Part shown: positions 35,977 through 43,246 of the stretch, one piece after another
Position numbering within the stretch: position 1 is the stretch's first letter
Layout of the letters: the number at the start of each line of letters is the position of its first letter
From: Halomicronema sp. CCY15110
Lineage (GTDB): Bacteria > Cyanobacteriota > Cyanobacteriia > Phormidesmidales > Phormidesmidaceae
NCBI RefSeq assembly: GCF_016888165.1
Contig: NZ_JACSWC010000371.1
Span: 1 to 64,000 of the forward strand
Reading direction: 5' to 3'
DNA length: 64,000 nucleotides
Notes under the pieces: generated by a model
The model's input: only the letters and a program-made list of their open reading frames with translations
The model's database searches: none
Told to the model about the DNA's origin: nothing
Position numbers and translations under genes: made by a program

Positions 35977-36642
35977 TTAGCCCAGCACTACGCCAGAGAG
36001 GAAAGCAGCACCGACACCGGCCAGCGCAAAACCCGCAAACCGCAGCGTCAACGTGCTGCCTTCGGCTTTGCCAGTCAACTGCTTAGCCATGCCATAAGCA
36101 CCCACGGCGATCGCCAGTTGAATCACGGCAAATCCAGCTAGATAAGCCAAGATGGTGTCCATCCCCGCGCCTACCACCGCTTCACCATAGGCATAGCCAT
36201 GAAACAAGCCAGCCAGGGCGGCCAAACCGATGACAATGGGCGTTTTGGGCTGTTGCTTCATGGCCAGCAGCACACCAAACAGCAGCACCGAGGCGGAAAT
36301 GATGAACTCAGGTGCGGGTAAATCAATGGCCATCAGATGCAGTCCAGTGCCCGCCATGGACGCCACCACAAAGCCCACGGGAATCAGTAAACCACCCCCC
36401 ATGGCGGCCGCCAGCAAACCAGCCGCAATCACAAACGCCAGGTGATCCAGCCCAATGACCGGGTGCCCCATGCCGGACAAGAATCCCTGGATGGCATTGG
36501 TTGGAGTATCGCCACCAAAAGGATGGTGAGCTAGCGCTGGGGCCGCCGCCAACATGAGTCCAGTCGTTACTACCAGACCTAAAGCCCCCACTCGTGCCAT
36601 GACCGCTGGCGGTGCCGCCTTAATAGACCAAAACTGTCGCAT
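35977..36642 (-). CDS. HupE/UreJ-family membrane protein
   Basis: 221 residues from the ATG at 36642 (GAGGAAAC upstream). A signal-like N-terminus ends ALAHHPFG, then six or so helices with the family patterns GMGHPVIGLDHLAFVIAAGLLA and LFHGYAYGEAVVG. HupE/UreJ proteins are thought to import nickel or cobalt and are often near hydrogenase or urease genes. Here it follows cynS by 54 bp on the same strand, an uncommon context. Confidence 0.88.
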   Translation of the reverse strand: MRQFWSIKAAPPAVMARVGALGLVVTTGLMLAAAPALAHHPFGGDTPTNAIQGFLSGMGHPVIGLDHLAFVIAAGLLAAAMGGGLLIPVGFVVASMAGTGLHLMAIDLPAPEFIISASVLLFGVLLAMKQQPKTPIVIGLAALAGLFHGYAYGEAVVGAGMDTILAYLAGFAVIQLAIAVGAYGMAKQLTGKAEGSTLTLRFAGFALAGVGAAFLSGVVLG

Positions 36643-36696
36643 CTGTTTCCTCTCAGCAAAGTAATGAATAGCAAAAACCGACAAAAATCCAGCGTT

Positions 36697-37140
36697 TTAC
36701 CACTTCTTATAGGGCAAGAATTTACCACACATGATGATTTTCACGCGATCGCCCTTGGGGTCTTCCTCACGTTCCACATCAATGGAAAAATCGATCGCGC
36801 TCATGATCCCGTCGCCAAAGTGTTCATGCACCACTTGCTTCACGGGCACACCGTAAACTTGCATAATTTCGTAAAAGCGATAGATGAAGGGATCAGTCGG
36901 AATGACTGGATCGAGGGAGCCCTTGGTGGGACATTCCGTTAGCAGCTCGATGAAAGCAGCATCAGCCCCGATGGCTTCAACAATGATTTTGGCCTCTTCC
37001 TCAGACGCACTGGCCTGGCGGTAAATGACCGAAGCAATCCACACTTCATCGCGACCGACCTTGGCTTCTAAATCCGCAAAGGTCAAGCCAGACTTTTTCT
37101 TAGCAGCTAACAACTTTTCCGTAATTTCAGGAATTGCCAC
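36697..37140 (-). CDS. cynS: Cyanate hydratase (cyanase)
   Basis: 147 residues, close to the standard cyanase length. The N-terminal helical domain is followed by the catalytic C-terminus with [16 protein letters not shown] (the Arg and Glu of the active site) and [20 protein letters not shown] (the Ser). The decamer converts cyanate and bicarbonate to carbamate and CO2, giving ammonia. It closes the cynABDS operon, about 120 bp after cynD. Confidence 0.97.
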
Positions 37141-37260: not shown

Positions 37261-38145
37261 CTAGCCGCTGATGCGCGCTTCTTCCACCGCCCGCGTTTCG
37301 CGGAACAAGTGGCTTTCCATCTCCGCCTTTAGGTCGTGATAGGCCGGATGCTGGTCAATGATTTCGCGATTGCGCGGCCGCGGAAAGGGCACATCAAGCA
37401 CTTCGTCAACGCGGGCGGCAGGGCCACGGGTCATCATGACGATGCGATCGCTCAGCAGCAGCGCCTCTTCAATACTGTGGGTAATCATGATGACCGTCTT
37501 ACGCTGCTGTTCCCAGATGCGCTCGATTTCGTCTTGCAAAAAGCCCCGCGTCAGCGCATCCAAAGCCCCAAAAGGCTCATCCATCAGCAAAATTTGGGGA
37601 CTAAAGGCCAGAGCCCGAGCAATCCCGACCCGCTGGCGCATGCCGCCGGACAACTCATGGGGATGCTTTTTCTCAGCGCCCGTCAAGCCCACCAGCTGAA
37701 TATGCTCAGTAATGGTCCGATTCACCTGCTTGGCCGACCACTTGGGATATACCGTTTCCACCGCAAAGCGGATGTTATCCTCCACCGTCATCCAAGGCAT
37801 GAGGGCATAGTTTTGAAAGACCATGCCGCGATCGGGGCCAGGGCCACTGATCGGGTGATTGTTAAACAGGATCTCGCCAGCCGTAATGTCCGACAGTCCC
37901 GCAATCATGTTCAACAGAGTCGACTTACCACAGCCCGAGGGGCCAATGATGGTCACAAAAGTATTGGGTTCAATGTCCAGACTAATATTCTCAATGGCGA
38001 CGAAGTCCTTGGACTTTTTGCCAGAAAGCTTGCTGAACAAATCCTTTTTGCCCCAAAAAACCTTGGCGACATTGCGAATCGACAGTTGGGCGGTCGGTGA
38101 ATAAGTATCCACCGGAGTTGCTGAATTCACAGGTGCTACACTCAC
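37261..38145 (-). CDS. cynD: Cyanate ABC transporter, ATP-binding protein
   Basis: 294 residues from a GTG at 38145 that overlaps the cynB stop as GTGA; longer frames upstream lack homology. Walker [10 protein letters not shown], signature [15 protein letters not shown], Walker [13 protein letters not shown] and THSIEEAL are present. It belongs to the NrtD/TauB/CynD class for nitrate, sulfonates, bicarbonate or cyanate. The cynS neighbour points to cyanate. Confidence 0.93.
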
Positions 38146-38984
38146 GAATTTCGACCAAATACGACAAATCTTTCGACCGCAGCAAAGATGCTGTCTAAAA
38201 TTAGGCCGACCAGGCCAATGATGAAGATGGCAACCAAAATATTCGGAATATAAAGGTTGTTCCACTCATTCCAGATGAAATAGCCCAGCCCCGTCCCCAA
38301 GAGCATTTCCGCCGCCACAATCACCAGCCAGGCAATGCCCATGCTGATACGCAGCCCCGACACAATGTTCGGGAGCGCCGCAGGAATGATCACCTTAAAG
38401 ATGGTCCGCAAGCGAGAAGCGCCCAGGGTTTGGGCCACATCCAAATACTCTTGATCAACATTGGCCACTCCAAATGCCGTATTAATCAGCGTGGGCCAAA
38501 TGCTGGAGATAAAGATGATGAACACCCCAGTGACCTCCGAGTCCCGAAAGACATAGAGGCCCAAGGGCAACCAAGCGAGGGGCGAAATGGGCTTCAAAAG
38601 CTGGACATAGGGATTGAAGCCTTTGCGGGCGACAGAAGAAATGCCCATCAAGATGCCCAACGGCACCGCGACGATCGACGCGAGAAAATAGCCGATCGCC
38701 ACTCGCCGCAAACTAATCAACAAGTTCCACCCGATCCCCAGATCGTTAGGCCCATTGTTAAAAAAGGGATTGGTCACCCACCACCACAGCTCCTTCAGCG
38801 TTTCAGAAGCAGTCGGCATGCCCGAGGCAAACCACTCAGCTCGGGCACCAATTTCCCAAAACAGCAGAAAGGCAATCAGTGAACCGACAAAGAGCAAAAA
38901 GGCTCGCACCCCCTCTGTAAAAAAGAGTGATTCTTTTTCGCCCCCGTAGTAGGGGATGCTTGTATTCGTGTCGCTAACTGTCAT
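38142..38984 (-). CDS. cynB: Cyanate ABC transporter, permease
   Basis: 280 residues with about six helices. The EAA loop typical of the NrtB/SsuC/TauC class is seen in [36 protein letters not shown]-terminal 25 residues are hydrophilic. It is 25 bp downstream of cynA and overlaps cynD by 4 bp. Confidence 0.93.
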
Positions 38985-39009: not shown

Positions 39010-40653
39010 CTAGACGCCGTATTCGTCAATTTGCTGCTGCACGTAGCTGGCGGGATCCGCCGGGTCGAACGTGTCAAACGCCAACTCTTCGGTGCGGTAG
39101 ATCTCCGCTGGCGGTGCTTGCCCTAATTCTTCGGCCAGCTCGCGAGCTAAGTCAGTCAAGAAAATTTCTTGCCCAACGGTGTCATAGCCTTGTTCTGGGA
39201 TGACTTGGCCCGCCACGCCATCACCCTGTAAATCCCAGCGGACGAGCTGTGAAGAAATCCAGTTGGCAAAACTTTGCCAAGGATACGGATCAAAGTCGAT
39301 GCGATCGGGCACGCTCATGGTGTTGCCGTTGCCATCGTCATAGTTACCCGTCAACACGGCCTCGACCACCTCGGTGGGTTGGTTAAGGAAGGCCCGCTCA
39401 GAAATTGCTGCCGCAATCTCGACCCGGTTCGCCGGATCACTTGCATAACCAGTCGCTTCCACGATCGCTTTGTTCAAGGCTCGGAACGTATTGGGGTTGG
39501 CATCAATCCATTCATCGCTGGCGGCAAAGGCACAGCAAGGATGCCCCGGCCACAGATCCTTCGTGATCATGTGGATGAAGCCGACTTCCTCGTACACGGC
39601 CCGCTGGTTAAACGGATCGGGCATGAGATAAGCGTCAATGTCACCCGCGACCATCTGCGCGATGCTATCTGGCGGTGGCACGGGGCGAATCTGCACATCC
39701 ACGTCAGGATCAATGCCGCCCGTCGCTAAGTAATAGCGCAGTAGCAAGTTGTGCATGGAATAGGGGAACGGTACCCCGAAGGTGAAGCCCCGGAAATCAG
39801 CGGGGCCATTGATGTTGCCCCTATGACGGTTCGCGACCGTAATCGCCTGACCGTTGATGTTCTCAATGCTGGCCAGCTTGACGCCAAAAGAAGCGGAGCC
39901 CAAGCCCAGCGTCATCGCGATCGGCATAGGCGCCAGCATGTGATAAGCGTCGAGTTCACCCGCGATCGCAGAGTCACGCACCGCCCCCCAGCTCGGCATC
40001 TTCACCACGGTGGCGTTCAAGCCATGCTTTTCATAGAAACCCAGGGGCTCCGACATGATGATGGGCGACGCGCAGGTAATCGGAATAAAGCCAATTTGCA
40101 GATCGGTCTTTTCCAAACCGGATGTATCAACGGGCTCGGCATCGTCTTCAGCAGCGGGGTCGGTGCCACCGCCGCCACCACAACCAGCCAAGGTCACCAG
40201 GGCAGCCCCCACGGCCATGTTGCGCATAAACTCGCGGCGAGTAGCGCCACTGTTGCGAATGGAGTCGTTGAAAAACAACTCGGCTTGGGGGCCAAAAGCG
40301 GCCGCCAAGGCGTTGTCCAGGCCACCCGCCTGCTCACACAAGCCTAAGATCAGTCGCTCACGGCGCGGATCACCCCGACCCACCCGCTTCAGAAATAAAG
40401 CCTTACGCAACTCATGGGCATTAACGCCTTCTGCGGCCCGGATCTGATTCTGCTTGTAAAGGCCCATTTTGACCAGATCATCTACCATATCCAACGGATC
40501 TTTGGGCATGGTCTGCATGAATTCCCAGTGATCCATGGTGGAGTGCGTGCCGCCGCAAATGATGCACGCCAGTTCTAAATCGGAGAGCTCACCGCGATCG
40601 CAGTTGAGATTGTTCCATCGTCGTGCGGTCTGTGTTGCTGAACCAAAAACCAT
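39010..40653 (-). CDS. cynA: Cyanate ABC transporter, substrate-binding protein with N-terminal extension
   Basis: 547 residues. The C-terminal part (from about 180) is an NrtA/CynA-type periplasmic binding domain (LQIGFIPITCASPIIMSEPLGFYEKHGL, LGLGSASFGV, MVAGDIDAYLMPDPF). A Tat-like signal TRREFM at 138-143 and lipobox LAGC (Cys158) lie unusually far inside. Residues 1-137 form a separate soluble segment with CIICGGTH (Cys30, Cys33), a DHWEFM... motif and an Arg-rich GRGDPRRERLILGLCEQAGG stretch. Either the preprotein keeps this domain in the cytoplasm, or translation also starts at Met143. The region upstream holds an inverted repeat at 40708-40745. Confidence 0.9.
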   Translation of the reverse strand: MVFGSATQTARRWNNLNCDRGELSDLELACIICGGTHSTMDHWEFMQTMPKDPLDMVDDLVKMGLYKQNQIRAAEGVNAHELRKALFLKRVGRGDPRRERLILGLCEQAGGLDNALAAAFGPQAELFFNDSIRNSGATRREFMRNMAVGAALVTLAGCGGGGGTDPAAEDDAEPVDTSGLEKTDLQIGFIPITCASPIIMSEPLGFYEKHGLNATVVKMPSWGAVRDSAIAGELDAYHMLAPMPIAMTLGLGSASFGVKLASIENINGQAITVANRHRGNINGPADFRGFTFGVPFPYSMHNLLLRYYLATGGIDPDVDVQIRPVPPPDSIAQMVAGDIDAYLMPDPFNQRAVYEEVGFIHMITKDLWPGHPCCAFAASDEWIDANPNTFRALNKAIVEATGYASDPANRVEIAAAISERAFLNQPTEVVEAVLTGNYDDGNGNTMSVPDRIDFDPYPWQSFANWISSQLVRWDLQGDGVAGQVIPEQGYDTVGQEIFLTDLARELAEELGQAPPAEIYRTEELAFDTFDPADPASYVQQQIDEYGV

Positions 40654-40887: not shown

Positions 40888-41685
40888 TCATTCTGTCACC
40901 GATGCTTGTCGCCAAACTTGGGGAGAGACGCCGTGAAACTGACGAAATTGCCGGGTGAAATAACTGGAGTCGTTATAGCCAACTTGGGCGGCAATTTGCC
41001 TCACGGGTTGATCCGAAGTCTTGAGATAGAGGCGGGCTTGGTTCATGCGACGTTCGATAATCCACCGTTTAATGGTCAAGCCAGTTTCTTCCTGTACGAG
41101 ATTAGTTAAGTAGGCGGGAGAATAGCCCACTTCCTTAGCGACGTCGCTCAGATTGATCGAGTCACAATAGTGATTTTCAATAAATTGAAAAACCCGCGCC
41201 AACTTCGGACAGTCGGGAAAAATGGTGTTGTTTTCGACGGAGTCGAGCGATCGCGGCACGGTCGCCTCGCCATCAGGATGAGAGAGTGGCGGCGACTGGA
41301 TGGCGGTGGCAATCTCGGCGTGACGCTTGAGTCGGGAAGTAATCGCCGACAAAAACTGTTCTATCGTGCAGGGTTTCGTAAGATAGTCATCGGCCCCTAA
41401 TTCCATGCCGCTTCGCAGGTCAGCCATCGTCACTTTGGCGGTCAAGAAAATCAAGGGAATCGCTGCTGTCAGGGGCGATCGCCGCAGCGTCGAGAGCACC
41501 GAATAGCCATCCATATCAGGCATCATGATGTCGCAAACGACTAAGTCAGGATGATATTTTTGGGCGAGTTGAATCCCTTCTGAGCCATTGCCTGCACCGT
41601 AAGCTCTAAAGCCTTCGAAGGTTAAGCATTTCACAAATACGTTGCGAGTTTGCTGCTCATCTTCGATCACGAGTACGGTTTTCAT
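40888..41685 (-). CDS. Response regulator with AraC-type DNA-binding domain
   Basis: 265 residues from the ATG at 41685. Receiver domain 1-120 with phospho-acceptor Asp52 (VVCDIMMPDMDG), Asp9 and Lys104 (YLTKP). After a linker, an AraC/XylS double helix-turn-helix fills about 165-262 (INLSDVAKEVGYSPAYLTNLVQ, QPVRQIAAQVGYNDSSYFTRQF). It diverges from a histidine kinase gene and lies upstream of the cyn operon on the same strand, so it may control cyanate or related nitrogen genes. Confidence 0.92.
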   Translation of the reverse strand: MKTVLVIEDEQQTRNVFVKCLTFEGFRAYGAGNGSEGIQLAQKYHPDLVVCDIMMPDMDGYSVLSTLRRSPLTAAIPLIFLTAKVTMADLRSGMELGADDYLTKPCTIEQFLSAITSRLKRHAEIATAIQSPPLSHPDGEATVPRSLDSVENNTIFPDCPKLARVFQFIENHYCDSINLSDVAKEVGYSPAYLTNLVQEETGLTIKRWIIERRMNQARLYLKTSDQPVRQIAAQVGYNDSSYFTRQFRQFHGVSPQVWRQASVTE

Positions 41686-42019
41686 CGCACTTCCATTCGC
41701 TTGAACTGCCAACCAATTACTAATAGCCTAAAACCCTTTAAAAAATAGACGGTATTCACTTTCCCGGCATCACAGTACAAACATCGCAACGACTACGATG
41801 GTTCCAGGTCAGAAACTATTTATAAAGGAGCAATATTTTCTTTGCTCATAAGAAAACAAAATTTTCGCGGTGGTATTTATATATCTCTTTGGTAATCTTT
41901 AAGTAGACTGGCCGTAGTAGCCTAAGTTACATTTCGAATAGAGGGGCGGGATCTAGGGTGATTGACGATTGGCTGGGGTGACGTCGCCCTGAGTCATGCT
42001 TGCAGTGGGTTGGCCCATG
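41686..42019. other. Divergent promoter region of the two-component system
   Basis: About 330 bp, AT-rich at 41740-41930. It must hold promoters for both the response regulator and the kinase. I find no canonical NtcA site and no small gene. Confidence 0.4.
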
Positions 42020-43246
42020 ATGAATTATGACCACAGTCCGGTATCTGGCGCGGCGCGATCGCCCGCCAATCCGCTGGTGTTGCAGGAATTGGAGCTGTTG
42101 CGTCGCCAGCATCAGTTGATTCTAAATGCAGTGGGTGAAGGGGTGTATGGCCTTGACCTAGACGGCAATGTAACCTTTGTGAACCCCGCGGCGGCGGCCA
42201 TGATTGATTGGCCCGTTGAGGAACTGATTGGCAAATCCATGCACGCGGTACTGCACCATTCCCATGCCGACGGCAACCATTACCAACGAGAAGATTGCCC
42301 GATTTACCAAGCCTTTCAAGACGGCAGCACGCGCCGGGTGGCGAATGAAGTGTTTTGGCGCAAAGACGGCACCAGTTTCCCGGTGGAATATATCAGCACC
42401 CCCATGCACGACGAAGATGGGCAGTTGGTCGGGGCGGTGGTCACCTTTCGCGACATCACACAACGCCGCTGGGCCGAAGCGATTTTGCAGCGCACGAATG
42501 AAGAACTGGAACACAAGGTGCAGCAACGGACGGCCAAGCTGCGGCAGGCCAATCAGCAATTGCGGGAATTGAGTGAAATGCGATCGCGCTTTGTGGCGAT
42601 GGTGTGTCATGAATTTCGCAACCCGCTGAATAACATTGCCCTGTCGGTGTCGTCCCTCAATCGCTATGAGACGCAACTCAGCGAGGCCGAAAAGGCCGAT
42701 TATCTGCTGGCGATCAACGACAACGTCGAGCGCATGACCCAAATGATTGATGACATTTTGGTGATCGGCAAGATTGAGGCCAAAGTCTTAGAAGTATCGC
42801 CGCAACCGCTAGAGTTGGTGACCTTTTGTCGGGGGTTATTGGCGGAGCGCGAGTACCAGCGATCGGCCACTCCGATTGAGTTTAATTGTCGGAGCCGTCA
42901 GCTCAGGGCGCATCTCGACGAGCGGCTGCTGCGGTCAATTCTCAGTAATTTGCTCTCGAACGCGATGCGCTACACGCCGAACGAAAACCGGATCCGTCTG
43001 AAACTGGCGAAGCGCCAAGACACGCTCATTTTGCAGGTCGAGGACGAGGGGATGGGCATTCCTCAGGCAGACAAGCGGCAATTGTTTGAGCCGTTCCATC
43101 GCGGGCGTAATGTGAGCAATATTCCGGGGACTGGGCTCGGACTCAGCATCGTCAAGCAGTTTGTCGATTTGCAGCAGGGAACTTTGAAAGTTGTCAGTAA
43201 GGTCGGGCAAGGCAGCACCTTTACCGTGCGGTTGCCGCTCAATTGA
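42020..43246 (+). CDS. PAS-domain sensor histidine kinase
   Basis: 408 residues from the ATG at 42020 (MNYDHSPVSGA); an adjacent ATG three bases before is equivalent. A PAS domain with PAC end (about 35-155, GVYGLDLDGNVTFVNPAAAAMI...VTFRDITQRR) is followed by a coiled coil, the H-box MVCHEFRNPLNNIALS, and the ATPase boxes LLSNAMRYTP (N), VEDEGMGI (G1) and GTGLGLSIVKQF (G2). No membrane segment, so it senses a cytoplasmic signal. Probable partner of the divergent AraC-type response regulator. Confidence 0.92.
   Translation: MNYDHSPVSGAARSPANPLVLQELELLRRQHQLILNAVGEGVYGLDLDGNVTFVNPAAAAMIDWPVEELIGKSMHAVLHHSHADGNHYQREDCPIYQAFQDGSTRRVANEVFWRKDGTSFPVEYISTPMHDEDGQLVGAVVTFRDITQRRWAEAILQRTNEELEHKVQQRTAKLRQANQQLRELSEMRSRFVAMVCHEFRNPLNNIALSVSSLNRYETQLSEAEKADYLLAINDNVERMTQMIDDILVIGKIEAKVLEVSPQPLELVTFCRGLLAEREYQRSATPIEFNCRSRQLRAHLDERLLRSILSNLLSNAMRYTPNENRIRLKLAKRQDTLILQVEDEGMGIPQADKRQLFEPFHRGRNVSNIPGTGLGLSIVKQFVDLQQGTLKVVSKVGQGSTFTVRLPLN

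Follow-up and report, generated by a model that had tools for sequence, protein, structure and literature searches.

A conserved segment ahead of an internal twin-arginine signal in cyanobacterial CynA, possibly a cytosolic metal-binding module

The cyanate substrate-binding protein CynA of Halomicronema sp. CCY15110 carries a conserved segment of 137 residues ahead of its twin-arginine translocation (Tat) signal, an architecture about which hardly any doubt is left. Export signals usually sit at the N-terminus, and a conserved domain preceding an internal Tat signal departs from this rule. As far as the databases and literature searched show, such a pre-signal module in a known protein family is undescribed. 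Predictors that seek the arginine pair near residue 1 would probably overlook CynA-like proteins.

In the window (the whole stretch of 64,000 nucleotides that was analysed), the full cynA reading frame occupies positions 39010..40653 of the minus strand and encodes 547 amino acids plus a stop codon. Translation begins at a single upstream ATG at 40653, and no alternative start lies further upstream in this frame (open frame of 550 aa). The exported substrate-binding domain, residues 159-547 (39013..40179, minus strand), matches PF13379 NMT1_2 at residues 180-418 (E 5.8e-77) and has NrtA, CmpA and CmpC relatives in the PDB. The gene stands first in its cluster and is followed on the same strand by cynB (permease, BPD_transp_1, 38142..38984, in conserved synteny), cynD (ATPase, ABC_tran, 37261..38265) and cynS (cyanase, Cyanate_lyase, 36697..37140). 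By its membership in the NMT1_2/NrtA family and its linkage to cynB, cynD and cynS, the product is classed as a CynA-type cyanate substrate-binding protein and is predicted to bind or transport cyanate. A HupE/UreJ-family membrane protein, present in only some relatives, is encoded downstream of cynS (35977-36684, minus strand). Upstream of cynA lie a receiver-AraC response regulator (40888-41712, minus strand) and a PAS histidine kinase (41996-43246, plus strand), in an order that recurs in many relatives; both are likely regulators of the cyn operon. TatC, LspA and Lgt are all encoded in the same genome.

The sequence-only reading had placed the signal behind a segment with motifs of its own, and translation confirmed these positions. 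The segment (residues 1-137, 40243..40653, minus strand) contains CIICGGTH (30-37), DHWEFMQTMP (41-50) and GRGDPRRERLILGLCEQAGG (92-111). It is followed by the twin-arginine motif TRREFM (138-143, 40225..40242, minus strand), and then by the hydrophobic region of the signal and the lipobox LAGC (155-158), which ends in Cys158 (together 40180..40224, minus strand). The arginine pair, residues 139-140 in CynA and thus far from the N-terminal position of other Tat signals, is present in all 129 members scored; one further row (L113) was left out, in which the motif reads SRKQFL and Lys replaces the second Arg. The S/T-R-R-x-F-L/M consensus and moderately hydrophobic stretch of Tat signals are both found in CynA, and the Pfam TAT_signal model matches 15 family members. 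CynA also has the lipobox with terminal Cys of bacterial lipoproteins; a site of this type occurs in 122/129 members, and AxA-like sites stand in its place in several of the seven that lack the Cys. The hydrophobicity maximum of a 15-residue stretch has a median of 1.12 in the extension (highest 1.59) and 1.55 in the signal (lowest 1.17), with overlap in a few members.

Within the extension, a putative metal site, C30-x2-C33-x3-H37-x4-H42 (40528..40566, minus strand), is invariant in alignment set A1. The four conserved Cys/His ligands expected of a zinc knuckle are found in 124 of the 129 members, in one of three patterns: CxxC-x3-H-x4-H in 80, CxC-x3-H-x4-H in 36 and CxCxxC-x-H in eight. This exchange between Cys and His, with four ligands retained, suggests a metal site; the motif probably binds zinc, and an Fe-S site is also conceivable. 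A resemblance to SEC-C and CDGSH motifs was considered, but their spacing differs. Residues 53-135 (40249..40497, minus strand) are predicted to be helical, two AlphaFold runs agreeing on this at low confidence (pLDDT 46 for the full length, 60 for extension plus signal). The best-conserved stretch of the 129-row alignment is AGG-x3-A-x2-AAFG-x2-A-x2-FF (residues 109-128, 40270..40329, minus strand), in which A109, G110, A118, F120 and G121 occur in every row.

Searched alone, as had been advised, residues 1-137 belong to no Pfam or NCBIfam family, yet find matches throughout cyanobacterial CynA. Pfam searches with 103 diverse members and NCBIfam searches with 32 returned Tat-signal matches and scattered ones at chance level, and no family for the extension. 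A PDB profile search with the extension gave no significant match, and structural comparison (VIA) from its weak model returned helical rows alone (Z at most 5.5). The candidate standalone copies of the domain that were followed up proved to be CynA genes with a frameshift or, in one case, decayed, and none was a separate gene. No paper was found in a literature search on internal Tat signals or the CynA extension.

The extension was matched in 54/65 genomes of the order and 131/390 genomes of the class, and a contig-level genome scan with it gave 56 loci, all cyanobacterial. An SBP-based search set the CynA proteins (at least 499 bits) apart from the next substrate-binding protein match (at most 232 bits). 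The cyanobacterial genomes yielded 132 distinct proteins of the CynA clade, of which 130 matched the extension profile; the two exceptions are L117, whose gene is frameshifted, and L068, a partial sequence at the end of a contig. In CCY15110 itself the complete arrangement occurs twice, the two proteins being 62% identical over residues 4-547. The layout is also present in one Prochlorococcus-sized genome and, in intact form, in PCC 7117 (L092), a relative of the laboratory strain Picosynechococcus PCC 7002. Since essentially every cyanobacterial CynA examined has the same layout, the layout is real. Compared with four close relatives, the extension has a dN/dS of about 0.015-0.07 and its changes are mostly third-position or synonymous, a sign of translation and of purifying selection. 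Its mean identity is lower than that of the substrate-binding domain (0.48 against 0.72), and distances in the two parts are correlated (r 0.77, against at most 0.17 in 200 permutations). A sequencing error that joined two genes, which the sequence-only reading had named as a possible refutation, is excluded by the identical frame in more than 100 independent genomes and the low dN/dS; a fused neighbour gene or an untranslated upstream frame has, on the same evidence, practically no chance of being the explanation.

From these features, CynA is proposed to be a Tat-exported substrate-binding lipoprotein with an internal signal peptide, in which residues 1-137 would form a small cytosolic module made up of a Cys/His metal site and helices that run up to the twin arginines. 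When a Tat signal inserts, its N-terminus stays on the inner side, so that a module of 137 residues should stay cytosolic while the folded substrate-binding domain crosses. CynA would fold, the module would be held in the cytosol during insertion of the signal, and residues 159-547 would pass the membrane via Tat. Cys158 would be lipidated and signal peptidase II would cut ahead of it, leaving the module inside. That the module stays in the cytosol and is parted from the mature lipoprotein is considered likely; the earlier idea of a cytosolic domain separated on export agrees in this respect with the N-in topology of Tat signals, the conserved lipobox, the four-ligand motif and an extension mostly less hydrophobic than the signal. 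The favoured role for the module is one in cis, in which it might act on export or biogenesis of the protein that carries it, as a folding check or a gate before Tat, a tentative suggestion that falls short of an even chance. The whole chain, from a cytosolic metal module through its separation at Cys158 to such an in-cis action, is held about as tentatively.

The second half of the earlier idea, that one gene gives two products through a start at Met143, did not hold up. Met143 and Met146 codons do occur in this cynA, but Met143 sits behind the arginine pair, so that a start there would destroy the Tat motif, and ATG is found at this position in just 16/129 members. The 30 codons up to the arginine pair are without ATG in 102/129 and without ATG, GTG or TTG in 56/129, and a full-length protein accompanied by a shorter one from Met143 or a nearby internal start is thus very unlikely. 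An uncut signal, by which CynA would be anchored as one transmembrane unit with the module inside and the substrate-binding domain outside, is improbable, if somewhat less so. The absence of the lipobox Cys from seven members would accord with it, but the lipobox-type site in 122/129, the AxA-like sites in several others and the LspA and Lgt genes argue for cleavage.

The main rival to an in-cis export role is regulation of uptake. The module would here be a cytosolic regulator of the transporter or of nitrogen control (PII, CynD, CynS) rather than of its own export, similar in role to the C-terminal domain of NrtC/CmpC. Ammonium inhibits the cyanate/nitrite ABC transporter post-translationally and in a PII-dependent manner (PMC4390861), and the analogous ammonium effect on the sister system requires the regulatory domain of NrtC (PMC6603209). 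In CynD, no C-terminal SBP-like domain of the NrtC type was found, ABC_tran being its sole match, and a module on CynA could conceivably take that place. Cleavage, however, would detach such a regulator from the substrate-binding protein. Also, substrate-binding protein copies away from cynBDS, in this genome and elsewhere, retain both the extension and the arginine pair, even where no cynBD adjoins. The extension thus goes with the substrate-binding protein rather than with the transporter genes. This speaks for a role in cis, and a regulator of uptake, for all its precedent, is rather unlikely. A frameshift in the Synechococcus elongatus extension speaks against the regulator as well.

This genome, G093, was recognized as S. 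elongatus by its KaiA (283/284 residues alike). In its cynA (L116/L191) a single-base frameshift falls within the extension, and the frame of the substrate-binding domain is still open. Broken extensions with an open substrate-binding frame were also seen in G009 (L126) and G223 (L189), and L117 (G285) has a frameshift or deletion just after the signal, again with the substrate-binding frame open. Either true loss or sequencing error may lie behind these. According to published work (PMC4390861, PMC6627978), CynABD of S. elongatus functions as a cyanate/nitrite transporter. Should the frameshift be genuine and shared by the strain used in that work, transport would not need the metal module in cis; the metal part of the extension may therefore be dispensable for that function.

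The copies without cynBDS beside them have other neighbours. One in the CCY15110 genome (L114, contig C116) adjoins sll0787 and MSMEG_0567/Sll0786 family genes, another (L123) adjoins nitrile hydratase, formamidase and allophanate hydrolase genes, and the neighbours of a third (L142) resemble, by eye, a nitrilase cluster. Such second copies with the extension suggest that the role extends more widely, to the metabolism of nitriles or cyanide. It is even conceivable, though improbable, that the pre-signal Cys/His site senses cyanate, cyanide or nitrogen status and so gates export, through Tat, of the binding protein that carries it. If so, CynA would be an exported protein that brings along a cytosolic switch, one conserved across two phyla and present also in substrate-binding proteins beside cyanate, nitrile and Nit1C-type gene clusters. 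CynA offers a test system for whether a deep internal Tat signal is usable with a folded domain left inside, and for the control of cyanate uptake, which is important to picocyanobacteria.

Among known systems, the cyanobacterial lipoproteins NrtA and CmpA share with CynA the substrate-binding fold family, a Tat-type arginine-pair signal and a lipobox. Their substrate-binding domains are about 30-40% identical to that of CynA. In contrast to CynA, their arginine pair comes no more than about a dozen residues after the likely start, and they have neither a pre-signal extension nor a Cys/His motif. The extension is therefore general to CynA, as the sequence-only reading had allowed for, but is not a property of all CynA/NrtA homologues, and no simple known role for it was found.

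Proteobacterial CynA of the cynFABDS type and related proteins near nitrilase or aldoxime dehydratase genes belong to the same substrate-binding clade as CynA, and plasmid-borne homologues reach 55% identity in the substrate-binding domain. They share the arginine-pair signal and a pre-signal segment with CxC(G), often with His. Their segment is shorter, 49-81 residues ahead of the arginine pair in eleven homologues with an assigned start against 137 here, and they lack the lipobox. The homologues lie in cynABDS-like operons, with cynS in five of those read; the segments of Methylobacterium (GGCSCGAHASQAAHD) and Bosea (GCTCGRHESQDAHEQAH) are examples. In three loci on proteobacterial plasmids (L206, L207 and L208) the annotated coding sequence starts downstream of the CxC motif, and the database protein would lack the segment. 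In a 49-row IQ-TREE tree, a branch with 100/100 support has all 41 of the substrate-binding proteins that carry the segment on the same side. Compared as profiles, the proteobacterial and cyanobacterial segments align over 12 columns at the motif (probability 33%, P 4e-4), and with the alignment limited to these columns homology beyond the motif is suggested at most. The C-terminal SBP-like regulatory domain of NrtC/CmpC can be likened to the CynA module as a cytosolic add-on of a sister transporter, although it differs from the extension in the protein that carries it, in its position and in its sequence.
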